Origin: Bacteroides sp. | GTDB taxonomy: Bacteria; Bacteroidota; Bacteroidia; Bacteroidales; Muribaculaceae | DNA: 64,000 nt | Direction of reading: 5' to 3' | Assembly: GCA_023666835.1 (NCBI GenBank) | Contig: JAMPBJ010000001.1 | Span: forward strand, 993,996-1,057,995 | Shown here: positions 8,009-31,878 of the stretch, in pieces | Layout of the letters: every line of letters begins with the position of its first letter | Position numbering within the stretch: the first letter of the stretch is position 1 | Made by a program: the position numbers and the translations under genes | Notes under the pieces: model-generated | Databases searched by the model: none | Seen by the model: the letters and a program-made list of their open reading frames with translations, nothing else | Told to the model about the DNA's origin: nothing

Positions 8009-8916
8009 ATCTTTATCACCATGCCTTCGTTGGCGCCCACAACGGCTTCAAACACCCCGCGGGCTTCTTCGACGAGCACTTCATAGTCGGTATAACGTTT
8101 CGAATAGTGACCTATCACCAGTCGTCCCACTCCGGCTTCGCGGGCCACAGTGGCGGCATCCAAAGCGGTCGAGTGGCCACGTTCGCGTGCCAGCACGCCG
8201 ACATCGCTCAGATAGGTGGCCTCATGGTACAGCACATCAACACCTCTGACGGCTTCAACCACGCGCTGATCGTACATCGTGTCGGAGCAATAGGCATAGC
8301 TGCGGCTCGGGTCGGCGGGTGTGGTCAGCGCCTGGTTAGGTATCGTACGACCGTCGGGCGTCACATAGTCGGCCCCCTCCTTGATGTCACGCAGCAGTCT
8401 CACCGGTATCTGATGGAATTTCACCATGTCACCCCGCAAGTGTCGGGGCTTGGGCGTCTCGCGAAAGAGGAAGCCGTAGGCCGGTATGCGGTGGTAGAGA
8501 GGGAAGGCGTCGACGGTCAGCGACGGCGACTCGAACAGGCGGCCCCCCTTCCCGGTAATCGGTTCATAGACAATATCAAACGGCGACTGTCGGCAGAAAT
8601 AGTCAGTCACGCCTTTCATCACGGCCAGGCCGTCGGACGGCAGATGGATCACCACGCGTCCGGTGCGCTCATGCAGTCCGAGCGTCGAGAGCAGTCCGGG
8701 CAGGCCGAGGCAATGGTCGCCGTGCATGTGGCTGATGAATATGTGGTTGAGTCGCGAAAACTTCAGACTCATGCGGCGCATCATGCGCTGGGCGCCCTCG
8801 CCGCAATCGATCATGAACAGATTGTCGCGGAAATTGACCACCTGCGACGCCGGATTGTGCAGCGGTGTGGGCGATGCCGAGCCGCATCCGAGTATGTTTA
8901 CCTCAAATCTGTCCAT
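8005..8916 (-). CDS. rnz: Ribonuclease Z (tRNA 3'-processing)
   Basis: Metallo-beta-lactamase-fold endonuclease that trims tRNA 3' ends. The 303 aa from ATG 8916 (MDRFEVNILGCGSASP) fit the short RNase Z. The zinc motif HMHGDH, an aspartate (CSDTMYD), a histidine (LYHEATYL) and the terminal IGHYSKRY motif are present. It is relevant that the one tRNA in this window lacks an encoded CCA. The longer in-frame extension upstream is a shadow of the divergent gene. The promoter lies between 8938 and 8968. Confidence 0.95.
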   Translation of the reverse strand: MDRFEVNILGCGSASPTPLHNPASQVVNFRDNLFMIDCGEGAQRMMRRMSLKFSRLNHIFISHMHGDHCLGLPGLLSTLGLHERTGRVVIHLPSDGLAVMKGVTDYFCRQSPFDIVYEPITGKGGRLFESPSLTVDAFPLYHRIPAYGFLFRETPKPRHLRGDMVKFHQIPVRLLRDIKEGADYVTPDGRTIPNQALTTPADPSRSYAYCSDTMYDQRVVEAVRGVDVLYHEATYLSDVGVLARERGHSTALDAATVAREAGVGRLVIGHYSKRYTDYEVLVEEARGVFEAVVGANEGMVIKI

Positions 8917-8937
8917 AATTCTAACAGCATTAGACCA

Positions 8938-8968
8938 CAAAAATAATAAATATTGTCTATCTTTGCAA
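8938..8968 (-). promoter_or_regulatory. Promoter of the rnz-tadA operon
   Basis: On the minus strand TTG (8966-8968) and TATTTTTG (8938-8945) are 20 bp apart. The -33 overlaps the tail of the divergent -7 region, so the two promoters share about 30 bp of DNA. Confidence 0.6.
8958..8965 (+). promoter_or_regulatory. -7 element (TATCTTTG) of the DUF3822-rsmD operon
   Basis: TATCTTTG ends only 7 bp before the ATG at 8973, so the transcript should begin at or next to the start codon (leaderless or nearly so). Confidence 0.65.
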
Positions 8969-8972
8969 GCAA

Positions 8973-9815
8973 ATGGACTCAAGCAGGCTCGACAAAGATC
9001 TGATATCGCAACCCGAGTTGTGGCGACTCGTGCTGACGGTTGGCCGCGACGCCCTCGATGTGGCGCTGCTTCCCCCGCTTTCGCGCGAGGAAATGATCCT
9101 GTGTTCCTACCCCTATGGCTCGACCGATGCCGGCCTGCTTTCGGCCATCGAGGATATTGTCTACGACAATCCACTGCTGCTTAGCGACTTCAAGCGTATC
9201 GACTGCATAGTCGACTATGTACCGCAGGTGCTTCTTCCGGCGGCTCTACCCGACGAGGCCGTAGCCCCGGCTGTCGACATAGCCTCGGCTGCTGTAACCG
9301 ATGCCGACCTCTGCGAGCCGGAACTGTTTGACACGTCCGATCCGGAATGCCGTGTCGGTGTGCGACAGCTACGCAGCGTGCGCGACTTCCTAACCCGCAC
9401 CTTTTTCAACGTGCGCTTCGATTCGCGCATCGCCTCGCTCGTGCGCCACTTCAACTCGCTGGTCGACCTGCCCGAAGGCGTGCGCATGTTTGCCTTGACG
9501 CGCGGCAAGCAACTGACGCTCATTGCTTTACAAAACCACAGCGTCATACTGGCCAACACGTTTGAATTCCAATCGCCCGTCGATGCGGCGTTCTATATCC
9601 TCTCGGCGGTGCGCTCGCTCGACATCGACCCGGAGCATCTGATGCTGATGGTGTCGGCACCGGCCGACGCCTCCTCGCAGCCATCGATCGCCTCGACACT
9701 CGAGCGATTCTTCCCCCGCGTCGAGCCGATGCCATTTCCCACGCTGCGCTACCGGGCTTCGAAAGCCACGCTGCGCGCGCCACTCGAACTAATAATCCGT
9801 CCGCTATGCGAATAA
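8973..9815 (+). CDS. DUF3822 family protein
   Basis: A 280-aa cytoplasmic protein of unknown function. It belongs to a Bacteroidota-restricted family (DUF3822) typically encoded directly before rsmD, as here, where the two frames overlap by 10 bp. The fold hint is a duplicated actin/ASKHA-like arrangement of strands and helices, but no catalytic motif is apparent. The stable coupling to an rRNA methyltransferase suggests a role linked to RNA modification or to expression of RsmD; this is inference. The start ATG 8973 fits the promoter position. Confidence 0.8.
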   Translation: MDSSRLDKDLISQPELWRLVLTVGRDALDVALLPPLSREEMILCSYPYGSTDAGLLSAIEDIVYDNPLLLSDFKRIDCIVDYVPQVLLPAALPDEAVAPAVDIASAAVTDADLCEPELFDTSDPECRVGVRQLRSVRDFLTRTFFNVRFDSRIASLVRHFNSLVDLPEGVRMFALTRGKQLTLIALQNHSVILANTFEFQSPVDAAFYILSAVRSLDIDPEHLMLMVSAPADASSQPSIASTLERFFPRVEPMPFPTLRYRASKATLRAPLELIIRPLCE

Positions 9816-10704: not shown

Positions 10705-11097
10705 ATGAAACGCAACAAAAATCTTGACCACACGCTCTCGGCCTCACCATGGCTGTGGGTCATGAATCTCGGACTGCTGCTCATCGTCGTTGGCACGACA
10801 CTGCCGCTGTTCAACCCCGACAATTTCAGCTCCGACAATACGTTCCGCTACATCTACTCGGCCGGCGCTCTACTGGCGCTCGGAGGCCGCCTGGCCACTC
10901 CGCGCTATCGCGGCACCATCGTGCGCGTGATCCGTCTGTGCCGCATCGAGATCTGGAGCTGCATCGCCTTCTGTGTCGGCGCATTCTTCATGTGGTACAT
11001 GCCCGGCCAGAGCCGCGATTGGCTCGCCTTCACCCTGGCCGGCGGCGCTCTACAGCTCTTCACCTCCATCATGATACCCCGAGCCGTCCGCGGCTGA
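10705..11097 (+). CDS. Hypothetical four-helix membrane protein
   Basis: A 130-aa protein with four hydrophobic helices (PWLWVMNLGLLLIVVGTTLP and three more) and a basic N-terminus MKRNKNLDH. Small Bacteroidales membrane proteins of this type often follow the divIC gene; no function is known. ATG 10705 is preferred over a TTG at 10675. It probably shares a transcript with the genes from 8973. Confidence 0.75.
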   Translation: MKRNKNLDHTLSASPWLWVMNLGLLLIVVGTTLPLFNPDNFSSDNTFRYIYSAGALLALGGRLATPRYRGTIVRVIRLCRIEIWSCIAFCVGAFFMWYMPGQSRDWLAFTLAGGALQLFTSIMIPRAVRG

Positions 11098-11175
11098 TCC
11101 ATCACCACGCAAGCCAATCACCATCACATACTTACGTCCACCGACAACACAAACACACTTCGACCCGGGTCGACT

Positions 11176-12723
11176 TTGCGGTCGCCCAACCATGTCTACA
11201 CCATCCACTCCGTGCTCGGCACCGGTGGATTCGGCATCACTTACTCGGCCACTTTCTCCACAATGGTCGGCTCGCTGCCCGTCAAGGCCGTGGTGGCCAT
11301 CAAGGAGCATTTCATCTCGGCCGACTGTCTGCGCGACGGCACCACCAACGCCATCATCTATTCGCAGCCCTCGGCCCAGCGCGTCGAGCAGTCGCGCCGC
11401 GATTTTGCCGGTGAAGCCCGTCGACTTATGCAGGTAGGGCAGACCAACCCCAACATAGTGAAGGTGAGCGAAGTGTTCGACGCCAACAACACTTCCTACT
11501 ACGTGATGGAATATCTCGAAGGCGTGTCGCTCCACGACTATGTGCGCGAGCGCGGACGCCTCACCGAGCAGCAGACCCTCGATCTGATGATACCGGTGGT
11601 TCGTGCCGTGGCTTCGCTCCACGATCAGCGCATCACCCACCTCGACATCAAGCCGTCAAACATCATGATAGCCTCGACGGCCGACGGTCAGCCGCGCCCG
11701 GTACTCATCGATTTCGGTCTGTCGAAGCACTACAACTCCGACGGCTCAGCCACCTCGACCATCAACACCCAGGGCTACAGCGACGGCTACGCCCCGGTGG
11801 AACAATATGTAGGCATCAGCACCTTCTCGCCCGCCAGCGACGTCTACTCCCTGGCTGCCACCATGGTCTACTGCCTCTCGGGCCAACGTCCGCCCAAAGC
11901 CCTGGAGATGAACCCCGCAAGCCTCAACCGCGCCCTGCCCGCTGACATCAGCACCACCTTGCGCGACACCCTGACCAAAGCCCTAAAAATGGCAGCCAAC
12001 GACCGCCACTTCGACGCCGGCGCCCTCGCCAACCTCCTCCAATACGGCCACTCCGCCCAAACCACCCAAACCCAAGCCACCCCAACCACAACCCAAACTC
12101 CAACCCCAACCCAAATTACCCCAACCCAAACCATCCCACAAACTCCCATCACTCCCACTCCCCAACCTGAGTTTCAATCCACCACACCACTCACTTCAGA
12201 GCCTCAACCAACAAAAGCCATAAACATTTTAGAATCATCAGAATATTACGACAATTACAGTCCTGCTACTCAAAACGAGGACTTAGAATCGAAGAATAAA
12301 AAAAAGCCGTTCTCATATATAGTATATAACATATTACAATTTTTTGGATTAATCTTATTTATTTTCATAGGTTTAATTCTATTCCATTCGACTTTATTAG
12401 GAGGAGAAGAAGATGATGAATATTTTTGCTTCATGGAGCAAAGAAGTTATGGCTTATTATTTGCGGCAATCATGATCTTAATTGGTGGCCTAGGGAAACA
12501 TTTTTCAAGGTTCAAAAAAGTCAATAAAACTAAAACAAAAATAGATTTATTGGGAAGTACTTGTTTATGTTTAGCCTCTATTAATTTCTATTTTTGGGGA
12601 TATCAATTCCTATATTTCATGGATATGCCCTCAATTTTCTTTCTTCTTTCGCTTGTGGGAATAATACTTCTACTCATACCTGCGAGAAAATTTTCACGAG
12701 CACAGATCTTCCAACAATCGTAG
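11176..12723 (+). CDS. Ser/Thr protein kinase with Thr-Pro linker and AT-rich membrane tail
   Basis: The 515-aa product has a complete PknB-type kinase domain: glycine loop LGTGGFGITY (14-23), lysine in VVAIKEH (K43), helix-C Glu (E80), catalytic HLDIKPSN (155-162) and DFG (179-181). A repetitive Thr/Pro/Gln linker (about 293-340) leads to a C-terminal region with about four membrane helices. From about 12230 the DNA becomes clearly AT-rich with different codon use, unlike the kinase part, which suggests a recombinant tail. No ATG lies in frame before the kinase domain; TTG 11176 is the only common start, and homology-like sequence (LRPGSTLRSPNH) begins further upstream, so the start is uncertain. 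The substrate is unknown. Confidence 0.85.
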   Translation: MRSPNHVYTIHSVLGTGGFGITYSATFSTMVGSLPVKAVVAIKEHFISADCLRDGTTNAIIYSQPSAQRVEQSRRDFAGEARRLMQVGQTNPNIVKVSEVFDANNTSYYVMEYLEGVSLHDYVRERGRLTEQQTLDLMIPVVRAVASLHDQRITHLDIKPSNIMIASTADGQPRPVLIDFGLSKHYNSDGSATSTINTQGYSDGYAPVEQYVGISTFSPASDVYSLAATMVYCLSGQRPPKALEMNPASLNRALPADISTTLRDTLTKALKMAANDRHFDAGALANLLQYGHSAQTTQTQATPTTTQTPTPTQITPTQTIPQTPITPTPQPEFQSTTPLTSEPQPTKAINILESSEYYDNYSPATQNEDLESKNKKKPFSYIVYNILQFFGLILFIFIGLILFHSTLLGGEEDDEYFCFMEQRSYGLLFAAIMILIGGLGKHFSRFKKVNKTKTKIDLLGSTCLCLASINFYFWGYQFLYFMDMPSIFFLLSLVGIILLLIPARKFSRAQIFQQS

Positions 12724-12872
12724 TTTATTTTTAGCTGATTGGTAAAGACTAATCCACTTTTCATGTGGGACGAACCTTCCTATCCCTCCTATTGAGGCTC
12801 TATTTGAGGCGTTAGACGCGCTGTAATAAATAATATTAACAGTTGGATGGTGGTTAATTCTTTAAGAATTAT

Positions 12873-12880
12873 TAAATTTG
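12873..12880 (+). promoter_or_regulatory. -7 element (TAAATTTG) before coaX
   Basis: TAAATTTG lies 7 bp before the coaX ATG, which places the transcript start at about the start codon. No good -33 was found. Confidence 0.55.
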
Positions 12881-12887
12881 CGCCCAA

Positions 12888-13625
12888 ATGGCCTATTATA
12901 TAACCATCGATCAAGGCAACTCGGCGGCCAAACTGGCTTTGTGGCGCGACGAGACTCTCGAAAAGATACTCATCACGGAGCATCTGTCGGCCGACGTGAT
13001 CAGCCGTTGGCTGGAGGACCGTCGCTCGGTCGACGCCGCCATCTACTGCTCGGTGGCCTCGCGCGGCACCGACATCATGGCGATGCTCTCGTCGGTGGCC
13101 CACCGCTCGATGCGCCTTAGCTCCGACATGCCGCTTCCGATCAAGATCGACTACGGCACACCCGGCTCGCTCGGCGCCGACCGCATTGCGGCCGCCGTGG
13201 GCGCCCGCGCCATCATGCCCGACGTGCCGCTGCTGGTGGTCGACGCCGGCACGGCTGTGACCTACGACGCTGTCAGCGCTGACGGTCGATTCGAGGGAGG
13301 TAACATAGCCCCGGGCATGAACATGCGCGTCGAGGCTCTGCATCGCTTCACAGCCCGACTGCCACGCGTGCAGGTGCCCCGTGAACTGCCCACCGGCGCT
13401 TTCCTTGGCACCGACACTGCCTCGGCCATGATCCTTGGTGCCGTCTACGGCATAGTAGGAGCCATGTCGTACTACAAACAGCATCTTCCGTCCGACACCC
13501 GCGTGGTGATGACAGGCGGATGGGCCGGCGAACTGAGCCGCATCTGCGACTTCGATGTCACCGTCGAGCCCCATCTGGTCAGCATCGGACTCAACAGAAT
13601 ATTGATCTATAATGAAAATAATTAA
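12888..13625 (+). CDS. coaX: Type III pantothenate kinase
   Basis: First step of CoA biosynthesis: ATP-dependent phosphorylation of pantothenate. The 245 aa carry ASKHA-fold motifs: N-terminal DQGNSAAKLA (the DxGNT-like phosphate loop), GSLGADRIAA and VVDAGTAVTYDAV, all diagnostic of CoaX. It overlaps the following outer-membrane protein gene by 14 bp, so the pair is co-translated. Confidence 0.96.
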   Translation: MAYYITIDQGNSAAKLALWRDETLEKILITEHLSADVISRWLEDRRSVDAAIYCSVASRGTDIMAMLSSVAHRSMRLSSDMPLPIKIDYGTPGSLGADRIAAAVGARAIMPDVPLLVVDAGTAVTYDAVSADGRFEGGNIAPGMNMRVEALHRFTARLPRVQVPRELPTGAFLGTDTASAMILGAVYGIVGAMSYYKQHLPSDTRVVMTGGWAGELSRICDFDVTVEPHLVSIGLNRILIYNENN

Positions 13626-22178: not shown

Positions 22179-24221
22179 TCACTTCACCTGGGCACCGGGG
22201 GTCACGGGAGCTGTCGGTCCGATGACCACGAGCGAGCCGTCGGCATTTTCGGCCGAAAGGATCATGCCCTGCGACTCAATGCCCTTGAGCTTGCGCGGCG
22301 GCAGGTTGGCGATGAAGCACACCTGTTTGCCGACGAGATCCTCAGGCTTGTAGTACTTGGCAATGCCCGACACGATGGTGCGCTTCTCCAGACCATCGTC
22401 GATGAGAAACTTCAGCAGCTTGTCGGCCTTGGGCACCTTGACACATTCAATCACCGTGCCCACACGCAAGTCGGCTTTCATGAAAGTGTCGAAATCGACG
22501 TCGGGCGCCTGTGGCTGAGCCTTCCAGCTGTTGACCTTGTTCTGCTCCTTGATGTCGGCAAGACGCTTAAGCTGAGCGTTAACAGCCTCATCGTCGATCT
22601 TCTCAAACAGCAGTTCGGGCTTGTTGAGACGATGACCGGCCGGCAGCAGATCGGTGCGACCCAGATCGGCCCATCTCAACTCGCTCATGCCCAGCATGGC
22701 AGCGAGTTTGTCGGACATGAACGGCAGGAACGGCTCGAAAGCGATGGCAATGTTGGCGCAAAGCTGCAGAGCCGAGTTGAGGATCGTGGCCACTCGCTCC
22801 ATGTCGGTTTTGGCCAGCTTCCATGGCTCGGTTTCCTGGAGATATTTGTTGCCGTTGCGGGCCAGCTCCATGGCATCTTTCACAGCCTCGCGGAAATGGA
22901 AATTGTCAAGATTCTGCTCCAGCTGAGCCTTGATGCGAGCCATGTCGGCAAGCATGTCGGCATCGACCGGCTGAAGCTCGCCGGCAGTCGGAACAACGCC
23001 ATCGAAATACTTCTGCGTCAGCACCATGGCGCGGTTGACAAAGTTGCCGAGGATAGCCACCAATTCATTATTGTTGCGAGCCTGGAATTCGCTCCAGGTG
23101 AAATCGTTGTCGCGTGTTTCGGGGGCATTGGCCGTCAACACATAGCGGAGAACGTCCTGCTTGCCGGGGAAGTCGGCCAGATATTCGTGAAGCCACACCG
23201 CCCAGTTGCGCGAAGTTGATATCTTGTCGCCCTCGAGGTTGAGAAACTCGTTGGCCGGCACATTGTCGGGCAGTTGGAAACCATCGCCATAGGCCATCAA
23301 CATGGCCGGGAACACGATGCAGTGGAACACAATGTTGTCCTTGCCGATGAAATTGATTATGCGCGTTTCGGGATCCTTCCAGTATTTCTCCCACGAATCG
23401 GGCAGCAGCTCCTTAGTGTTGGAGATATAGCCGATAGGAGCGTCGAACCATACGTAGAGCACCTTACCCTCGGCTCCTTCAACCGGCACGGGCACACCCC
23501 AATTGAGGTCGCGGCTGACGGCGCGCGGCTGCAAGCCAAGGTCGAGCCACGACTTGCACTGGCCGTAGACGTTGGGTCGCCATTCCTTGTGGTCATCGAG
23601 TATCCACTTGCGCAGATCGGCTTCATATCGGTTGAGCGGCAGATACCAGTGAGAGGTCTCCTTCATGGTCACCGGCGCGGAAGTCAGTGCCGAATGAGGA
23701 TCGATCAGGTCGGTGGCGTTGAGCGTTGCGCCGCATGCCTCGCACTGGTCGCCATAGGCACGATCGGAGCCGCAGTGCGGACATGTGCCAACCACATAGC
23801 GGTCGGCCAGGAACTCGCCTGCCTGCTCGTCGTAGGGCTGGAGCGACGTCTGCTGCTCGAAGCGTCCGTCGTCGTAGAGCTTGCGGAAGAAGTCGCTTGC
23901 AGTGCGGCGATGAAGCGGGGAAGTGGTGCGTGAATATATGTCGAACGATATTCCGAGCTCCTGCATCGAATCCTTGATGATCGTATGATAGCGGTCGACG
24001 ATGTCCTGCGGAGTGACACCCTCCTTGCGAGCCTTGATGGTGATGGGCACCCCATGCTCGTCGCTACCGCCTATCATGATCACGTCCTCGCCCTTCAGAC
24101 GCATATAGCGTGCATAGATATCAGCGGGGACATAGACTCCGGCCAGATGGCCGATATGGACCGGGCCGTTGGCATACGGCAACGCGGTGGTGATCAGAGT
24201 ACGTTTGAATTTCTTTTCCAT
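22179..24221 (-). CDS. metG: Methionyl-tRNA synthetase
   Basis: Charges tRNA-Met. The 680 aa have the class I HIGH motif in [13 protein letters not shown], a zinc knuckle with paired CxxC (CPHC, CEAC), the KMSKS-like loop GDKISTSRN, and a C-terminal tRNA-binding OB domain ([17 protein letters not shown]). This is the long, dimeric MetG type. The start ATG 24221 fits the upstream minus-strand promoter. Confidence 0.98.
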
Positions 24222-24292: not shown

Positions 24293-24417
24293 GATAATAT
24301 GGAATCAGGCCGATTGAGCCTAAAATTGCAAAAAATGCAGGGGCTTATATACGATTTATATGATTTAATGACAGAGCTTTTTTTGCTATTTTGGGATCAA
24401 ACCGCACCGGCCTACAG

Positions 24418-24425
24418 TAACTTTG
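24418..24425 (+). promoter_or_regulatory. -7 element (TAACTTTG) of the orphan-terminase operon
   Basis: TAACTTTG lies 18 bp before the ATG at 24444. A TTTG at 24390-24393 is 24 bp upstream, slightly wider than ideal. Confidence 0.5.
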
Positions 24426-24443: not shown

Positions 24444-26936
24444 ATGAAAAACACACAAAAACTAACCCCGGTCGACATCGGCGAGATCAACACTGACGAA
24501 CCGGTGACCCACTGCCACAACCTGATGGCCAAACATATTGACGGGCGCGATGTGCTGACCGTCGCACCGCCCATAGTGTCGCTCGGCCAGGGCCGGCGAG
24601 TGCCATTGGCCACGATGTATGACACATCAGGCCACCCCCACATTCTCTTCCATCGCCTCTCGGACCCCGCCGCCCTATTGGTGGAGTGCGACGCAACGAC
24701 CGAACTCGAGTACGCCACCGGGCTGACGGTGCACTGCGCCGTGGCCCGTCGCAACGGATTCATTGCAATGACCGACCGCGGCCCGCTGCAGATCAACCGC
24801 GACGACGAAGGGCGCTGGAGCGTGACATCGACCATCGCCCTTACACACGACCTGCTGCTCGAGCCACAACCCGCCGGAGAGCTCAGCGCCTCCACTACTC
24901 CGCTGACCCTCACCGGAGTGACCTTCGACCGCACCAACCCCGACATTGGATCAACGTCGCTCACCGCGCTAGGTAGGGAACTCTCCTCGGTCTACCGCAT
25001 GATAAGCGAAACGGCTCGTTCGGCCGGACTCTGGTTTCAGCCCACGCTGATGCGTTATCATCTGACCGACAGCAGCGGCGAGCGCATCTACTCGTCGATG
25101 CCTATGCTCATGAGCCGGGGCGGACGCCAGCTGTGCAACGAGATCTCAGTCGACGTCACAAAACCTGACACCGACAAACTGTCAGTGCCTTCTATCACCC
25201 TGCAGGCCGAGGCCTACAGACTGCACCTGCACATCAGCGAGGAGGCGGCCCGGCAATTGACTGCCGCCGGCGTGCGCTCCATCGAGCTGACAGCCATGCC
25301 CCAACTCCATCCGCTCGATGCATCGCAACTCCCCGCATGGCGACTGGTGCGCTCTACCGGCGACTCCCCGGTGCTGACCCTGACTCTGCCCGGGGCCACC
25401 GATCATTTCAGTTCGCACGACGCCATGGCAGCCCGCAGTCTGCATCGACTGAGCCTGATGATGGACAGCGAAGAACGCATCGTCAGCATCATAGAAATGC
25501 CATCGACAGGCAGCGAGCTGTCCGTGGCACGCACCGACATGACCGACTGCGACAGCGAGATCCGTCAGACCGACCGACTGCTGGCACAGCCGATTGCAAC
25601 TGCTGCCGATGCCGCCGACTACTCCGCCACCCTTATGCGACAGACATCGAAGCCCAACAGCTTCACGGCCCGCGCCGTAGAAGCCAACGGCGAAGTGGTG
25701 GCCTGGGCCGACATCACTCCACTACCCACAACGACGGTCAACATAGCCGAACTTTGCAGCGGATTCAGCGACATGCCCTTCGAAGGCGCACTGACCGTAG
25801 GACTCGCCGACGGCTCCACGACATGCTTGGCCATATCGGGCGACCGCACACCCTCGGAGTGGGCACCCCTGGTCAGTTGGCCCGATCCACAGGCCACCTC
25901 TCTGACCATCGACCTGCTCAGCGCCGACAACCGCCGGCTGCGAGGCAGCGTCAATCTGACCGCAGCCGACGACCGGTCGGCCGCCTGCCGTATCGACCCG
26001 AAACTGGCATCTACACCCTTCACCCCAACCAACGAGCTTTTGCCTCAACCTCAAACCATCGCCAACTCCTCCGCCCGGCGAGCAGGAGCAGTGATGGCAT
26101 GCCGGCTGACGTCGCCGCTGACACCGCTGGCGGCCGTAGAGTGCAGCCATTCGCCCATCGTCGGCCTGTTGGCGGCCGTGCGATCACAGTCGACATGGGA
26201 CTTTTCGCGCTGCCACCTCTACGCCCTGTCGGCCGACGCCATCCACGCCGTTGCCGTCAACGCCTCGCGCCGCTCGATGTCGGCCACAATGATCGATCCC
26301 CGGGGCATCGACCGCCCTACGGCCGCATGCCGGTGCGACGACTGCATCATGGCATTGCACCGCGGACGCCTGCTGAGGATAGCGGCCTCGCGTGTCACAG
26401 CCCACGACATTCCCCTCCCGACTGAAGGCGCATACACCGACGTGGCATGGGACGACACGCTGCAACGCCTGTGGATGCGCGACTCGCAGGGCAATCTGTG
26501 CATTTACGACACACAGCAAGGCTGCATGGCCACACTGTCGTCGCCGGCCGACATCATGCAGCTTCGCACCGAGGACCACACCGTGTGGCTGACTGACAGC
26601 GACGAACTCTACCGCATGGACCTCAAAGCCACCGTTGCGACAACGCCTGTGCGGTGGACTGTCGTGCTGACGCCTCAGCCCGGCAGGCGCCTGGCCAGAG
26701 TGACCGCCAGAATATCGGCATCGAGGTTCGACGGATACCTCTCCGTGGAGGCTTCCGATTCGACCATCACTGCCCTACCCCCGCGTCGCCTCATGCGCCT
26801 GCGTTTTGCCGGAAGATGCTCAAGGCCCATAGCCGTGGCCGTCGACGCCCCGCACAGGGCGTTTCTGACGCTGACCGTCACCGGCAACGCATCGGCCGAT
26901 TTCAGTATTCACTCGATTGATCTACAGTACACATGA
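24444..26936 (+). CDS. Unknown 830-aa protein coupled to an orphan terminase
   Basis: I do not recognise a family. The start at ATG 24444 (MKNTQKLTPVDIGEIN) has no signal peptide or membrane helix, so the protein is probably cytoplasmic. It is beta-rich throughout, with many short Thr/Ser/Asp-rich strands. The part around residues 660-740 (TDVAWDDTLQRLWMRDSQG, LCIYDTQQGCMATL, VWLTDSDELYRMDL) resembles blades of a beta-propeller, and CRCDDC occurs near residue 635. Its stop overlaps the terminase start as ATGA, so the two proteins are made together. Base composition is like the surrounding genome. A virion-structural origin or a nucleoprotein role are both possible. Confidence 0.75.
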   Translation: MKNTQKLTPVDIGEINTDEPVTHCHNLMAKHIDGRDVLTVAPPIVSLGQGRRVPLATMYDTSGHPHILFHRLSDPAALLVECDATTELEYATGLTVHCAVARRNGFIAMTDRGPLQINRDDEGRWSVTSTIALTHDLLLEPQPAGELSASTTPLTLTGVTFDRTNPDIGSTSLTALGRELSSVYRMISETARSAGLWFQPTLMRYHLTDSSGERIYSSMPMLMSRGGRQLCNEISVDVTKPDTDKLSVPSITLQAEAYRLHLHISEEAARQLTAAGVRSIELTAMPQLHPLDASQLPAWRLVRSTGDSPVLTLTLPGATDHFSSHDAMAARSLHRLSLMMDSEERIVSIIEMPSTGSELSVARTDMTDCDSEIRQTDRLLAQPIATAADAADYSATLMRQTSKPNSFTARAVEANGEVVAWADITPLPTTTVNIAELCSGFSDMPFEGALTVGLADGSTTCLAISGDRTPSEWAPLVSWPDPQATSLTIDLLSADNRRLRGSVNLTAADDRSAACRIDPKLASTPFTPTNELLPQPQTIANSSARRAGAVMACRLTSPLTPLAAVECSHSPIVGLLAAVRSQSTWDFSRCHLYALSADAIHAVAVNASRRSMSATMIDPRGIDRPTAACRCDDCIMALHRGRLLRIAASRVTAHDIPLPTEGAYTDVAWDDTLQRLWMRDSQGNLCIYDTQQGCMATLSSPADIMQLRTEDHTVWLTDSDELYRMDLKATVATTPVRWTVVLTPQPGRRLARVTARISASRFDGYLSVEASDSTITALPPRRLMRLRFAGRCSRPIAVAVDAPHRAFLTLTVTGNASADFSIHSIDLQYT

Positions 26937-28828
26937 CTCTAGAAGAACTACTTGACGAAAACCGTCGGCGCAACGAGAAGTGGAACGTGGCGCCCTACGA
27001 TCCCATCGTGGGAAATCCCGCCGACGAAGGGCGAAAGGAAGTGTATGTGCCGGTGATTGATGCCCGGCGCCGCCTCCCTCTCGACATGCTTGCCGACCCC
27101 GAGTATGCGGCCATCGACTCGGTGGAAGCATACCGCAATCTGCGCATGTGCCACGACTTTGAATACTGGGCGGCGATGTGCGTCACCATACGCCACAAGG
27201 TGTCGGGACGGCTGGTGCCGTTTGTGCTCAACGCGCCCCAGCGCCGTGCCCTGGCTCTACTCGAAGAGGACCGCCGCGCCGGCAATCCGCTGCGCATGAT
27301 CATGCTCAAGGCCCGTCAGTGGGGCGGCTCGACGGTGGTACAGATCTATTTCGCATGGATCCAGATCATACACCGCCGCAACTGGAACTCGCTGATATGC
27401 GCCCATCTGAAGGACACGGCATGTGCCATACGCGCTATGTACGACCGCCTGGTCAACTGCTACCCTCCCGAGCTGTGGCAGGAAGATGAGGCACCGCGGC
27501 TTAAAGTGTGGCAGCGATCGCAAAACAGCCATGAGATAGCCGGACGCGGATCGACGGTCACCATCTCGTCGTCGTGCGGCCAGGACTCGTCGCGCGGCCT
27601 CGACTATGCCATGGTCCACATGAGCGAGGTGGCTTACTGGTATGCCACCGACCGCCGCAACCCGATGGACTTCGCCCGCGCCATCTGCGGCTCGGTGCCA
27701 CTCGAGCCCTATTCGGCCATCGTGATGGAGAGCACGGCCAACGGCGTGGGCAACTTCTTCCACACCCAGTGGCTCAAGGCCGAGCGCGGCGAGACATCCT
27801 ACCGGCCCATCTTCGTGCCATGGTATGAAATTGAGATCTACCGCAAGGAGTGCCCCGATCCGATGAAGCTGTTCGAATCGCTGACTCCCTACGAACGCGA
27901 CCTGTGGGACAACGGTCTGACGCTGGAGATGCTGCAGTGGTACCATACGAAGCGCAAGGAGTTTCCGTCGGATCAGGCGATGTTTGCCGAATACCCCACC
28001 ACGGCACAGGAAGCATTCGAAAACAGCGGCCGCAACGTGTTTGACAGCCAGTCGATAGAGTCGGTGCGCAAAAACTGCTGCGATCCGCTCGATCTGAGCC
28101 GTGCGTCGGTGCCTGCGTCGGCCTCGCAGCTGCTCGACAGCCCGGCCGGCGACGGCGTGCTGAAGGTGTGGCGCCTGCCCGAGGAGCTGTCGGAGAAGTC
28201 GCGCTATGTGGCGGTGGTCGACGTCGGTGCCCGCTGGATTTTCGGCGACTGGTCGGTGATCACGGTGTTCGACCGACGCCCGTCCGACGATCCCGAAGCC
28301 GAGGCCGAGGTGGTGGCGCAATGGCGAGGACACTGCGACCACGACCTGCTGGCAAACTATGCCGAGACAGTGGCTCGCGCCTATGCCAACGCCCTGCTGG
28401 TGGTGGAAAGCAATTCGCTCGAATCGTCGTCGGATCCCCACACTCAATACATACTCGAAGAGCTCCACAACCGCTACCGCAACATGTATGTGCGCTCCTA
28501 CCGCGATTCGTCGGGCAAGACACTTCGCGACTCACGCGTGGGATTCCACACCAACCGCGCCACGAAGGCGGCCGCCATCACCAACATGATCTCGGCCGTG
28601 CGCCGCGCCACGTTCATCGAACGCGACCACAGCGCATGCGACGAAATGGCCACCTACGAGTTGCTCGACTCCGGCGGATATGCCGCGCGCACGGGCTATC
28701 ACGACGACATGCTCATCACCCGCGCCATAGGCCTCTACATCATCAACCATCTGCTCGGCCCCAAATCGGACACACCGCGGCAAAGCTCTCTCGACGACTT
28801 CTTCGGCCGATACAATAATATGCGCTGA
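26933..28828 (+). CDS. Phage-type terminase large subunit (orphan)
   Basis: The 631 aa have the architecture of a DNA-packaging motor. The N-terminal ATPase has Walker A MLKARQWGGST (residues 124-134), Walker B-like VHMSEVAYW (E232) and coupling motif ESTANGVGNFF (266-276). The C-terminal RuvC-like nuclease has VAVVDVGARWIFGDW (D430, D439), VVESNS (E492) and YHDDM (D591/D592). The joining motif EYPTTAQEAFENSG is also typical. All catalytic positions look intact and the frame is unbroken. No small subunit, portal, capsid, tail, lysis or integrase gene is nearby, so it is not part of a recognisable prophage. It is translationally coupled to the 830-aa protein upstream. A retained cellular or defence function is inferred. 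Confidence 0.88.
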   Translation: MTLEELLDENRRRNEKWNVAPYDPIVGNPADEGRKEVYVPVIDARRRLPLDMLADPEYAAIDSVEAYRNLRMCHDFEYWAAMCVTIRHKVSGRLVPFVLNAPQRRALALLEEDRRAGNPLRMIMLKARQWGGSTVVQIYFAWIQIIHRRNWNSLICAHLKDTACAIRAMYDRLVNCYPPELWQEDEAPRLKVWQRSQNSHEIAGRGSTVTISSSCGQDSSRGLDYAMVHMSEVAYWYATDRRNPMDFARAICGSVPLEPYSAIVMESTANGVGNFFHTQWLKAERGETSYRPIFVPWYEIEIYRKECPDPMKLFESLTPYERDLWDNGLTLEMLQWYHTKRKEFPSDQAMFAEYPTTAQEAFENSGRNVFDSQSIESVRKNCCDPLDLSRASVPASASQLLDSPAGDGVLKVWRLPEELSEKSRYVAVVDVGARWIFGDWSVITVFDRRPSDDPEAEAEVVAQWRGHCDHDLLANYAETVARAYANALLVVESNSLESSSDPHTQYILEELHNRYRNMYVRSYRDSSGKTLRDSRVGFHTNRATKAAAITNMISAVRRATFIERDHSACDEMATYELLDSGGYAARTGYHDDMLITRAIGLYIINHLLGPKSDTPRQSSLDDFFGRYNNMR

Positions 28829-28877
28829 ACCACGTTATAATATGAGACTCTTTCCACACTTCGAAGAGCCGGATCAA

Positions 28878-30293
28878 ATGAAACATATGAAAACACTATA
28901 CCGTATATTCCCTATACTCGTGTCGCTCCTCGTCGCATCGGCCACCGTTGGCTGCATCGAGGACGGCATCTCGACCTCGCCGGCCGACCAGCCCGAATTC
29001 AGCACCGACACGCTAAGCTTCGGCGAGCAGTTCAGCGGCGAGATGACCATCACCCGTCATCTGATGGTCTACAATCGCCACGACAAGGTGATGCAAATCA
29101 GCGATATACATCTCGAAGGCTCGGCCGGAGGAACGTTCTATCTCAACGTCGACGGTCAGTCGGGCCAACGCTTCTCCAACATCGAAGTGCGCCCCAACGA
29201 CTCGATCTACGTGCTCGTGTCGGGCCGCTTCAAGGATGTGGGCAACTTCCACGAGCCGGTTATGGTGACCGACCGCATCATGTTTGTGACCAACGGCGTC
29301 AGCCGTTCGGTGGTGCTCAACGCAGAGAGCTTCGATGTGGAGACTCTTGCCGACCCGGTAATCGACACTGACACACGCTGGGACAACGATCGGCCTCGCC
29401 GCATCACCGGCACGCTGACCATCGCCCCCGGAGCCACGCTGACCATCGGCGAGGGCACCACGCTCTATTTCCACGACAAGGCGCGCATTGAGGTCGGCGG
29501 CACACTGGTCAGCGAGGGCACGGCTCAAAATCCGGTGGCCATGCGCGGAGACCGCCTGGGCAGCGTGGTGGGCGACATCTCGTTCGACCTCATGGCCAGC
29601 CAGTGGCAGGGCATCGACATTCTGCCGCAATCGACCGGCAACCGGTTGCAGTATACCGAAATACGCAACACCGTCAGCGGCGTCACCATGGACCACGCCG
29701 ATCTTGAACTGACCAACTGCCGCCTGCGCAATTCGGCCGGCAACGTGCTGCTGAGCCGTTTCTCGACGCTTCGCGCCGTGGGCTGTGAGTTTGCCGAATC
29801 GGCTTCTTCGCCCCTGGTGATCCACGGCGGCGAGGCCACGCTGAGCTACTGCACCTTCTCCAACTACTATCTGTTTGCGGCCATCACCGGGCCGCTGATC
29901 ACGCTGAACCACGCCGACGCCGATCATGCCGACGCCGACAATCCCGACGAACCGTGGGCCAAAGTTACCGTCGATAATTCGATACTCTACGGAACGTCGT
30001 CCGACCTCAACCTACGCAGCCTCGACGGCACCGACGTGTATCTGACCGGCTGCCTGCTGCGAAGCAACGGCACCGACGACGACCACTTCATCGGCTGCAT
30101 GTGGGGCGCCGACCCGCTGTTCTACACCGTGCGCGCCGACTATCTGTTCGACTACCGCCTGCAGCCCGAATCGCCCGCACTCGGAGCCTCCACGCCCTCG
30201 GCAGCCGCCCTCGCGCCGCCATCCACCGACTTCTACGGCACATCGCGCCCTACGCCGGCCGCCATCGGAGCCTACGAACAGCGCCCCGAATAA
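28878..30293 (+). CDS. Lipoprotein with right-handed parallel beta-helix
   Basis: A 471-aa lipoprotein whose signal (MKTLYRIFPILVSLLVASA) ends in lipobox TVGC. An N-terminal Ig-like region (residues about 35-160) is followed by a beta-helix: repeated strands from TGTLTIAPGATLTIGEGTTLYF through VSGVTMDHADLELTNCRLR to STDFYGTSRP. Such proteins are surface-exposed adhesins or polysaccharide binders in Bacteroidales. A short DADHADADN repeat links coils near residue 350. ATG 28887 is an alternative start. It follows the terminase gene by 49 bp without an evident promoter, so it may share its transcript. Confidence 0.8.
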   Translation: MKHMKTLYRIFPILVSLLVASATVGCIEDGISTSPADQPEFSTDTLSFGEQFSGEMTITRHLMVYNRHDKVMQISDIHLEGSAGGTFYLNVDGQSGQRFSNIEVRPNDSIYVLVSGRFKDVGNFHEPVMVTDRIMFVTNGVSRSVVLNAESFDVETLADPVIDTDTRWDNDRPRRITGTLTIAPGATLTIGEGTTLYFHDKARIEVGGTLVSEGTAQNPVAMRGDRLGSVVGDISFDLMASQWQGIDILPQSTGNRLQYTEIRNTVSGVTMDHADLELTNCRLRNSAGNVLLSRFSTLRAVGCEFAESASSPLVIHGGEATLSYCTFSNYYLFAAITGPLITLNHADADHADADNPDEPWAKVTVDNSILYGTSSDLNLRSLDGTDVYLTGCLLRSNGTDDDHFIGCMWGADPLFYTVRADYLFDYRLQPESPALGASTPSAAALAPPSTDFYGTSRPTPAAIGAYEQRPE

Positions 30294-30330: not shown

Positions 30331-31878
30331 ATGTTTCTCAGCGAATTAAGCCTCAGTCATTCCAACATCACCCGGTCATGTTCGGGCACGCCGCTGCACC
30401 TCTACATAACCCGACGGGGCCGCATAAACGCTGACGAGGCCATCTCCCTGATGATCCCCGTCATCAAGGCCATAGGTTTTCTCCACTCACACCGGATCAC
30501 CCACTTCGACATCATGCCCTACTCCATCACCGTCGACGGGGACACTCCGATGCTCATCGACACGGGAAACCTGACGCGTCACGATCCTTCGGGCAAACCA
30601 CTGGGAACATTGCCCGTGAAGACCACCTACGGTTTCTCCCCCATCGAACAGGATCAACCGATCTCGCACTTCTCCCCACAGGTCGATGTCTATGCCCTTG
30701 CGGCCACCATCTGCTATTGTCTGTCGGGCAAAACTCCGCCCGATGCCACCACTATGGCCCGCACAAACCTGGCACACATTCTCCCGTCCGACACTCCGGG
30801 CCGATTGATAAAAATACTGTCGCGCGCCATGGCGCCCAATCCCACCGACCGCTTTGCCGATGCCAACCGGTTGCTTGAAGCGATATGCGACTCCTCCGAC
30901 TCAGTTCCTCCCATTATCGTGCCCGTTCCGCCTTTCACGGCACAAGACCGCCATGCGACCCGGAGTACCGACAGCAGTGAAATCCCGTCGAATCAGTGGT
31001 CGTCTTCATCTGCCAATCAAAAGGTTGAGTTTAACGGCACTATGCCTGGCAGAGAAAACGATCAGCCTATACAGGAAAGTCATATCGCAGGCGACTACGA
31101 CCGGGCGCCCGGCAGCACTATTCATCATGGGCAGCATGATGGATCGAATGACCGACTACAGAACCATAACATGAAGGGTAGTCAACAACGCGGCGGCATC
31201 GGTTGTCAGGAACCCACATCAAGGCGCCGCAACACATACACAGCCAACTGCACACCTGTCGACAATTGCATACAGCCAGGCTCGTCGATATCGACATTCA
31301 AAGCTGTGGTTATAGTTTTAACCGGCTGCCTTTTAAGTCTCGGTGTATTCTTCGGATACCGCATACTTCGCTACGGATCCATCTCCAATTTTATACCTGC
31401 CACCGAACCAACCGAACTGACCGACCCTGCCGAATTGACCGACCCTGCTATTGCCGCCAATGACGACATCGTGGCTTCCATCGGATTCAATCCCGTCGAT
31501 GAACTGGTGCGAATTTCACACATCACAAACGAAAAAATTCGCAATGCAAAAATGCTTATCAATGTGCAGAACGCTTATATCAATCAAAAGACACTGATGA
31601 AGAAATTCAACAATCCGGAATGTAGTGGATATGTGCTTTCTGACTACGACAAACAGCGCATCTACAACGTGATGAACGAATCGCTCGAGGCACAATACGT
31701 GGCTTGCATGGCCGTTGTTATGGCCGGTCAGGACGCATCAGGATTTGTCATGGCCGAAAACGAGTATGAAAAGCAGACGCTTCGCGATCTGTTGCACGAG
31801 GAAGTGTATGGCTGCACCACATTCGGGGAGGTCAGGTCGGCCCTGACAAAGGCCATTTCCCGATCCGGACTCAATTAG
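30331..31878 (+). CDS. Membrane-anchored pseudokinase lacking the N-lobe
   Basis: The 515-aa product aligns with the C-lobe of the kinase encoded at 11176: LMIPVIKAIGFLHSHRITH here against LMIPVVRAVASLHDQRITH there, then VYALAATICYCLSGKTPP against VYSLAATMVYCLSGQRPP. The whole glycine loop, Lys and helix-C Glu are absent. The catalytic loop is HFDIMPYSI (Lys to Met, Asn to Ser) and DFG is DTG, so phosphotransfer is very unlikely. After the kinase part come a disordered Ser/His/Asn-rich stretch, one membrane helix (about 323-345), an acidic TELTDPAELTDPA repeat and a helical C-terminal domain with no match known to me. It may be a scaffold or a degraded paralogue; the open frame argues for retention. 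Confidence 0.8.
   Translation: MFLSELSLSHSNITRSCSGTPLHLYITRRGRINADEAISLMIPVIKAIGFLHSHRITHFDIMPYSITVDGDTPMLIDTGNLTRHDPSGKPLGTLPVKTTYGFSPIEQDQPISHFSPQVDVYALAATICYCLSGKTPPDATTMARTNLAHILPSDTPGRLIKILSRAMAPNPTDRFADANRLLEAICDSSDSVPPIIVPVPPFTAQDRHATRSTDSSEIPSNQWSSSSANQKVEFNGTMPGRENDQPIQESHIAGDYDRAPGSTIHHGQHDGSNDRLQNHNMKGSQQRGGIGCQEPTSRRRNTYTANCTPVDNCIQPGSSISTFKAVVIVLTGCLLSLGVFFGYRILRYGSISNFIPATEPTELTDPAELTDPAIAANDDIVASIGFNPVDELVRISHITNEKIRNAKMLINVQNAYINQKTLMKKFNNPECSGYVLSDYDKQRIYNVMNESLEAQYVACMAVVMAGQDASGFVMAENEYEKQTLRDLLHEEVYGCTTFGEVRSALTKAISRSGLN

Follow-up and report, generated by a model that had tools for sequence, protein, structure and literature searches.

Gene transfer agents (GTAs) are tamed viruses that are able to carry bacterial DNA between cells. 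They shape gene flow in the Alphaproteobacteria, and have recently been reported for gut Bacillota. The Muribaculaceae are major, dominant bacteria of the mouse gut. In the portion of PMC9662315 drawn upon here, a GTA is defined by six criteria: its particles are caudovirion-like, its genes are endogenized, often across loci, it is inherited mostly vertically and co-diversifies with its host, the particle is too small for the gene set, the packaged DNA is mostly random host DNA, and this is delivered to cells. The genes of RcGTA are found at five loci (PMC9662315, same portion). FpGTA of the gut bacterium Faecalibacterium (Bacillota) is probably podovirus-like. Its genes, which include those for terminase, portal, scaffold and capsid, lie in two operons, which in one strain are separated by about 125 kb, and its particles, their proteome and 8.4-8.9 kb of packaged DNA have been demonstrated (PMC12946183, as excerpted). 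In the same excerpt 23 of 25 events of GTA-like packaging in the gut are assigned to families of Bacillota, Bacteroides is named for lateral transduction only, and Muribaculaceae are not mentioned. No description of a GTA in the Bacteroidota was found in searches of the open-licence literature, and a report elsewhere is possible.

We have studied two adjacent genes, U830 and TerL, that lie within a stretch of 64,000 nucleotides of a Muribaculaceae genome (the window). From the sequences we consider it likely, with a probability of about three in four, that they belong to a podovirus-like GTA whose genes are dispersed and mostly inherited vertically. This reading is built on four observations: the parts are homologous to those of phages, they lie scattered among host genes, they tend to be present or absent together, and they are conserved. 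The particle set is kept in the chromosomes of most sampled Muribaculaceae and in the genomes of several other Bacteroidales families. The features of the locus in the window are as follows.

24390..24425, plus strand: promoter-like TTTG-24-TAACTTTG ahead of U830; weak, by eye
24444..26936, plus strand: U830, predicted particle protein of 830 aa; fast-evolving, and homologous by profile to gp34 of Bacteroides phage BKO1-TP3
26933..26936, plus strand: ATGA, where the stop of U830 overlaps the start of TerL; from the sequence
26933..28828, plus strand: TerL, large terminase with ATPase and RNase-H-type nuclease, 631 aa; phrog_2 and T4 gp17 profile
27308..27334, plus strand: Walker A region of TerL, residues 126-134 (KARQWGGST); alignment of relatives
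27626..27628, plus strand: E232 of TerL, the catalytic glutamate by the Walker B strand; invariant in relatives
28220..28708, plus strand: nuclease domain of TerL (D430, D439, E492, D591, D592); residues invariant, T4 gp17 alignment

The ATGA overlap of the two genes, to which the first-pass annotation had drawn attention, is confirmed in the sequence, and makes U830 and TerL a predicted single unit of transcription and translation. The Bacteroidota promoter that it placed ahead of U830 is reduced to a promoter-like sequence. The elements are TTTG at 24390 and TAACTTTG at 24418, noted by eye, and their spacing of 24 falls outside the scanned range of 17-23, within which there were six matches in the window and none ahead of U830. 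The composition is less host-like than had been claimed, with GC of 0.616 and 0.631 for the pair compared with 0.548 for the window, although the next downstream gene also has 0.616. The pair is flanked on one side by metG (22179-24221, minus strand, named by eye) and beyond TerL by a gene (28842-30293) in which a domain search found a choice-of-anchor Q domain. Further along is a kinase-like gene (30331-31878) whose Pfam match begins at profile position 79 of 263, the N-terminal lobe being apparently missing. A search of the window with the proteins of phage loci gave matches to TerL and U830, together with a translation-GTPase match at 1654-2973, and none for portal, capsid, scaffold or the small head genes. 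The earlier view of a host-resident TerL outside any prophage in this genome holds.

TerL matches the phrog_2 terminase large subunit (E 5e-15) and the structures of T4 gp17, with 4.5e-6 as a single sequence and 8e-15 as a profile, where the alignment spans the C-terminal part of TerL. Searches of Pfam and PADLOC gave no match, and an NCBIfam match was far under its cut-off. The nearest phages are the Bacteroides phages BKO1-TP3, BS-TP4 and BF1-TP2, at 38% identity. The Walker A sequence has the form KARQxGxST, with the lysine first, which is usual in phage terminases. Twelve residues (K126, R128, Q129, G131, S133, T134, E232, D430, D439, E492, D591 and D592) are invariant in 35/35 aligned TerL relatives and again in 39/39 members of a second, overlapping set, in which G132 is present in 38. 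Thus the ATPase and nuclease residues named at the outset are real, and the terminase is intact. A family of genes of 410-460 aa (cluster c4) is found closely 3′ of TerL in seven loci (L038, L039, L044, L045, L046, L048 and L054).

The U830 protein of the window gave no match by single-sequence tblastn against phage records, no confirmed match in IMG/VR, and no Pfam family or solved-structure family. Its sole PHROG match is phrog_32516, which carries no name, and a match to concanavalin A with E 0.007 was taken as chance. A profile of 19 Muribaculaceae-type rows (A1) was compared with three phage or prophage relatives using hhalign, giving 99.4%, E 1e-21 over 657 columns; in the control for this profile against the phage gp34 group, five column shuffles gave at most 0.1%. 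The U830 relative of genome G231 matches phages BKO1-TP3, BS-TP4 and BF1-TP2 and one further record. U830 is probably a structural protein of the tail or neck. Because of its size, its place and an N-terminal motif, which we take to point that way, we would guess at the tail nozzle. With hhalign U830 failed to match single T7 gp12 and P22 gp10, but the portal and capsid controls (P22 gp1, T7 gp8 and P22 gp5) were missed too, so that this comparison carries no weight either way.

The genome carries a second locus (L126, C3:214000-233900), on the minus strand of the same contig. Portal and capsid lie at C3:223.4-226.7 kb, compared with C3:1018.4-1022.8 kb for TerL and U830, so that the two loci are about 791 kb apart. 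Its genes are given in their order, with L126 coordinates.

12768-13112, minus strand: scaffold remnant, 114 aa; profile match to scaffolds of other families
11463-12740, minus strand: SU10-type major capsid; PF17236, 5e-50
10882-11466, minus strand: e4, head gene of 194 aa; profile match to phage genes
9440-10885, minus strand: P22-type portal; PF16510, 2e-15, and phrog_156, 2e-34
8961-9362, minus strand: e11, 133 aa; e11 profile, 1e-13
8492-8920, minus strand: e7, a small gene

Four-base overlaps join capsid to e4 and e4 to portal. The run is followed by a biotin-ligase-type gene, and the Pfam families of the proteins tested near it are DHDPS, biotin ligase and Laminin_G_3. Within the genes examined there is no integrase beside the phage genes at either of the genome's two loci, and neither has the layout of a prophage, with integrase, repressor and replication genes by the structural genes.

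The smaller genes of this run were also compared with phages. The e4 protein matches a near-capsid gene of 200-225 aa in seven phage or prophage loci that are not in its profile (E 4e-18 to 5e-7), while the match to L066, which is in the profile, is circular. It has no solved-structure match. The e11 protein matches a small gene before TerL in L058, L059, L060 and L064, and one beside TerL in L076; this place beside TerL in prophages leads us to guess that e11 is the small terminase. The 114-aa scaffold remnant corresponds to just the C-terminus of the scaffold of about 255 aa of other families (88%, E 3e-6; shuffles at most 0.4%). The latter are clear homologues of phage scaffolds (100%, E 8e-47), and a direct comparison of the Muribaculaceae remnant with phage scaffolds gave no match (2.8%). 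Taken together, the parts would amount to a complete packaging head, comprising scaffold remnant, capsid, portal, motor, a neck-type protein and a gp34-type structural protein.

The pair search across genomes that had been proposed as a check was run, and shows the pair to be retained in many other genomes. TerL relatives were found in 35 of 61 relatives, and in 31 of 34 within the same genus. TerL occurs at 36 loci of named genomes, with U830 directly upstream in 22. The pair is also carried (L045) by Duncaniella muris DSM 103720, a harmless strain in culture. Profile searches of 149 sampled Muribaculaceae genomes detected U830 in 134, TerL in 136, portal in 140 and capsid in 138, with U830 and TerL each present in 29 of the 30 sampled genera. 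By a hand tally from the four profile-search tables, all four genes are present in 121 genomes and none in three (G102, G137 and G195, of completeness 87, 62 and 83); at least one of the four is absent in 28. TerL and U830 can both be present yet separated, by 726 kb in G064 and on different contigs in G091 and G101. Genomes G062 and G156, each 99% complete, keep portal and capsid with no match to TerL or U830, and these are apparent partial losses. Lineage prophages living in the same hosts add to the gene counts. In 9 of the 136 TerL-positive genomes of the family the TerL is of prophage type alone, among the matches listed, and the type counts in both the family and the order draws rest on places among such matches.

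In a draw of 198 genomes across the order, U830 and capsid match exactly the same 14. TerL matches these 14 together with a weak match in G334, and portal the same 14 with a partial match in G363. The 14 comprise three Muribaculaceae, ten members of six other families, and G055, where the set is a prophage with an integrase. In 12 of these genomes the four genes lie dispersed, on four separate contigs in the case of G057. Compact sets are seen in G078 and in the prophage of G055, and G306 has a second set that is compact. The compact sets of G306 (L076, on C32) and G055 (L066, on C81) have relatives of U830 type, portal, TerL and capsid, and are likely to be true prophages of the ancestral lineage in the same order. 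In a draw of 395 genomes across the phylum, the genome of the window was the sole one with a TerL match, apart from one that was weak and fragmentary.

The surroundings of the genes can be compared between genomes. The same gene order after TerL is found in L022, L024, L025, L051 and the window, and portal or U830 lies beside suf-type genes and infB in L070, L071, L073 and L078 (names by eye). In G078 and G149 the whole set, including U830 and TerL, is in one cluster, flanked in G078 by an AcrB-OEP-acyltransferase run on one side and a HipA-type pair on the other. The first-pass annotation had held that capsid or portal genes of a degraded prophage beside the pair in close relatives would count against it. 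Such genes are indeed beside the pair in these two genomes, and the stand-alone reading falls; a degraded prophage they are not, as the genes are intact and family-wide. In other families U830 is back to back with a P22-type portal of 620-710 aa (PF16510 1e-35, phrog_156 8e-70), and G098 has an SU10-type capsid (PF17236 2e-48) between the two. The extracted Muribaculaceae portals are about 430-530 aa, compared with 620-720 aa in the other families, and on this comparison of sequences the shorter form is a shared shortening. In G259 (L243) a phage-like protein of tail or adsorption type follows capsid and gp46. A gp57-like gene of 190-208 aa lies by a gene of 864-937 aa near TerL in L068 (11403-13994) and on a TerL-match contig in L241 (8287-11097); the larger gene has no Pfam or PHROG match, and may encode an internal or ejection protein.

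Selection on the four genes was examined by the Nei-Gojobori method. Finite values of dN/dS were 0.07-0.26 for TerL (8 of 10 pairs), 0.19-0.50 for U830 (9 of 10), 0.08-0.32 for portal (4 of 8) and 0.06-0.30 for capsid (5 of 8), with dS mostly >1 and near or beyond saturation in most pairs. Wherever dN/dS was finite it was <1, for all four genes. Gene trees were calculated for 27 of 32 genomes, leaving out four without an rpoB match and G005, where portal and capsid are missing among the called ORFs though profile searches found both. Of 24 splits, TerL has 12 in common with the rpoB tree, U830 10, portal 14 and capsid nine, compared with at most four in 1000 label shuffles. Strongly supported splits that clash with strong rpoB splits number 5 of 17 for TerL, 6 of 16 for U830, 2 of 13 for portal and 4 of 12 for capsid. 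Distances for capsid and rpoB show no significant correlation (r 0.16, a value reached in 148 of 1000 permutations), and the same is true of U830 and capsid. TerL of G155 and G179 (L146 and L147) is 97% identical with dS 0.21, whereas U830, portal and capsid of this pair have dS values of about 2 or at saturation, which suggests exchange of the TerL locus between these species. We read the descent of the four genes as mostly vertical, with some exchange.

How might such a set work? The capsid protein would assemble on the truncated scaffold, with the portal forming one vertex at which TerL docks. TerL would then cut chromosomal DNA and pump pieces in until the head is full, after which the e4 protein and U830 would seal the neck and make up a short tail. 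Lysed cells would release the particles, and the pieces of host DNA would be delivered to kin. Both the packaging of host DNA and its delivery by the particle are what we infer from the genes. Since the two loci are further apart than one head should be able to span, the set would be unable to package itself whole and spread in that way, and most of the DNA in any particle would come from elsewhere in the chromosome. Two of the six published features of GTAs (PMC9662315, in the portion drawn upon here) are found in the gene evidence. The proteins are caudoviricete-derived as judged by similarity (PF16510 portal, PF17236 capsid, phrog_2 TerL, and homologues of phage gp34, gp45 and gp48), and the genes are endogenized across multiple loci, both in this genome and in the 12 dispersed sets of the order draw.

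The same genomic evidence would also fit a domesticated particle that packages host DNA or forms a shell for a purpose other than gene transfer, such as destruction of self DNA, killing of rivals, acting as a phage decoy, or serving as a helper hijacked by satellites. No lysis gene and no receptor-binding protein was identified in the genome of the window, and the portal of the Muribaculaceae is shortened, both of which accord with a particle of this kind. However, the joint retention of motor, portal, capsid and scaffold, with nuclease and ATPase both intact, speaks for DNA packaging, and a gene for a protein of tail or adsorption type lies beside the capsid gene in G259. We regard a purpose other than transfer as unlikely, though it is the most serious of the alternatives.

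Could the genes be the functionless remnant of one old prophage, or the result of repeated infection by related prophages? Related intact prophages do exist in the order (L066 with its integrase, in G055) and in phage records, some family genomes have a prophage-type TerL alone among the matches listed, and some gene trees conflict with rpoB. Against this, the genes are full-length, under purifying selection and spread over nearly all the sampled genera, and they are scattered singly yet present together, with similar host neighbours recurring. Decay of a prophage was judged unlikely on the values of dN/dS and the invariant catalytic residues, and we find a remnant of either origin quite improbable. 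The weakest reading, and one that we reject as highly improbable, is the first-pass proposal of a cellular system of U830 and TerL alone for anti-phage defence or DNA translocation, which would make the other phage genes coincidental: U830 is often directly upstream of TerL (22 of 36 loci) and the pair has its own locus here, but both proteins have homologues in the same phages, portal and capsid co-occur with the pair in the same 14 of 198 genomes and lie with e4, the scaffold remnant and two small genes at the distant locus of this same genome, all the genes cluster together in G078 and G149, and there is no sign of defence, PADLOC-DB giving 0 defence families for three proteins.

Returning to the GTA, we think it rather more probable than otherwise that it is functional and the first in the Bacteroidota, and that it arose by domestication of a temperate, podovirus-like phage of Bacteroides type ahead of the Muribaculaceae radiation, perhaps in a common ancestor of several Bacteroidales families. 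It would now be one of the standing routes of gene exchange in a dominant family of the mouse gut, its genes lying alone or in short runs between housekeeping genes. If this is true, the family-wide set in the Muribaculaceae is a new and independent event of GTA domestication, and gene exchange at the level of strains becomes testable in culturable members of the family. The scattering would be a case of a virus taken apart and retained by its host. It would also follow that a terminase, portal or capsid gene found in a genome of this kind is no proof of a prophage.

The nearest phage relatives found are BKO1-TP3 and its kin among the temperate Bacteroides phages. BKO1-TP3 has homologues of TerL (gp51), U830 (gp34), portal (gp54), capsid (gp47), scaffold (gp48, full length in other families) and e4 (gp45). 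By its annotation it also has integrase, repressor, replication genes, endolysin and two very large genes in a single genome of 65 kb, whereas the cellular set is scattered and shows none of those extra genes at its loci, as far as these were examined. The lineage prophages (L066 in G055, L053 in Odoribacter laneus, and L057-L061 from IMG/VR) share the same families of TerL, capsid, scaffold and e4, and L066 has in addition the U830 type and an integrase; they differ in being compact, with a TerL of about 670-710 aa that is 38-41% identical to that of the window. GTAs of the RcGTA type, which are formal viriforms of the Alphaproteobacteria, are alike in having phage-derived head and packaging genes fixed in their hosts at several loci and inherited mostly vertically. 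In contrast, the host here belongs to the Bacteroidota, the capsid is of SU10 type, the portal of P22 type, and TerL is nearest to those of temperate Bacteroides phages, the two systems being compared by description. The likeness of the Muribaculaceae set to FpGTA is likewise one of description; the set is known from its genes, whereas for FpGTA the particles themselves have been demonstrated.
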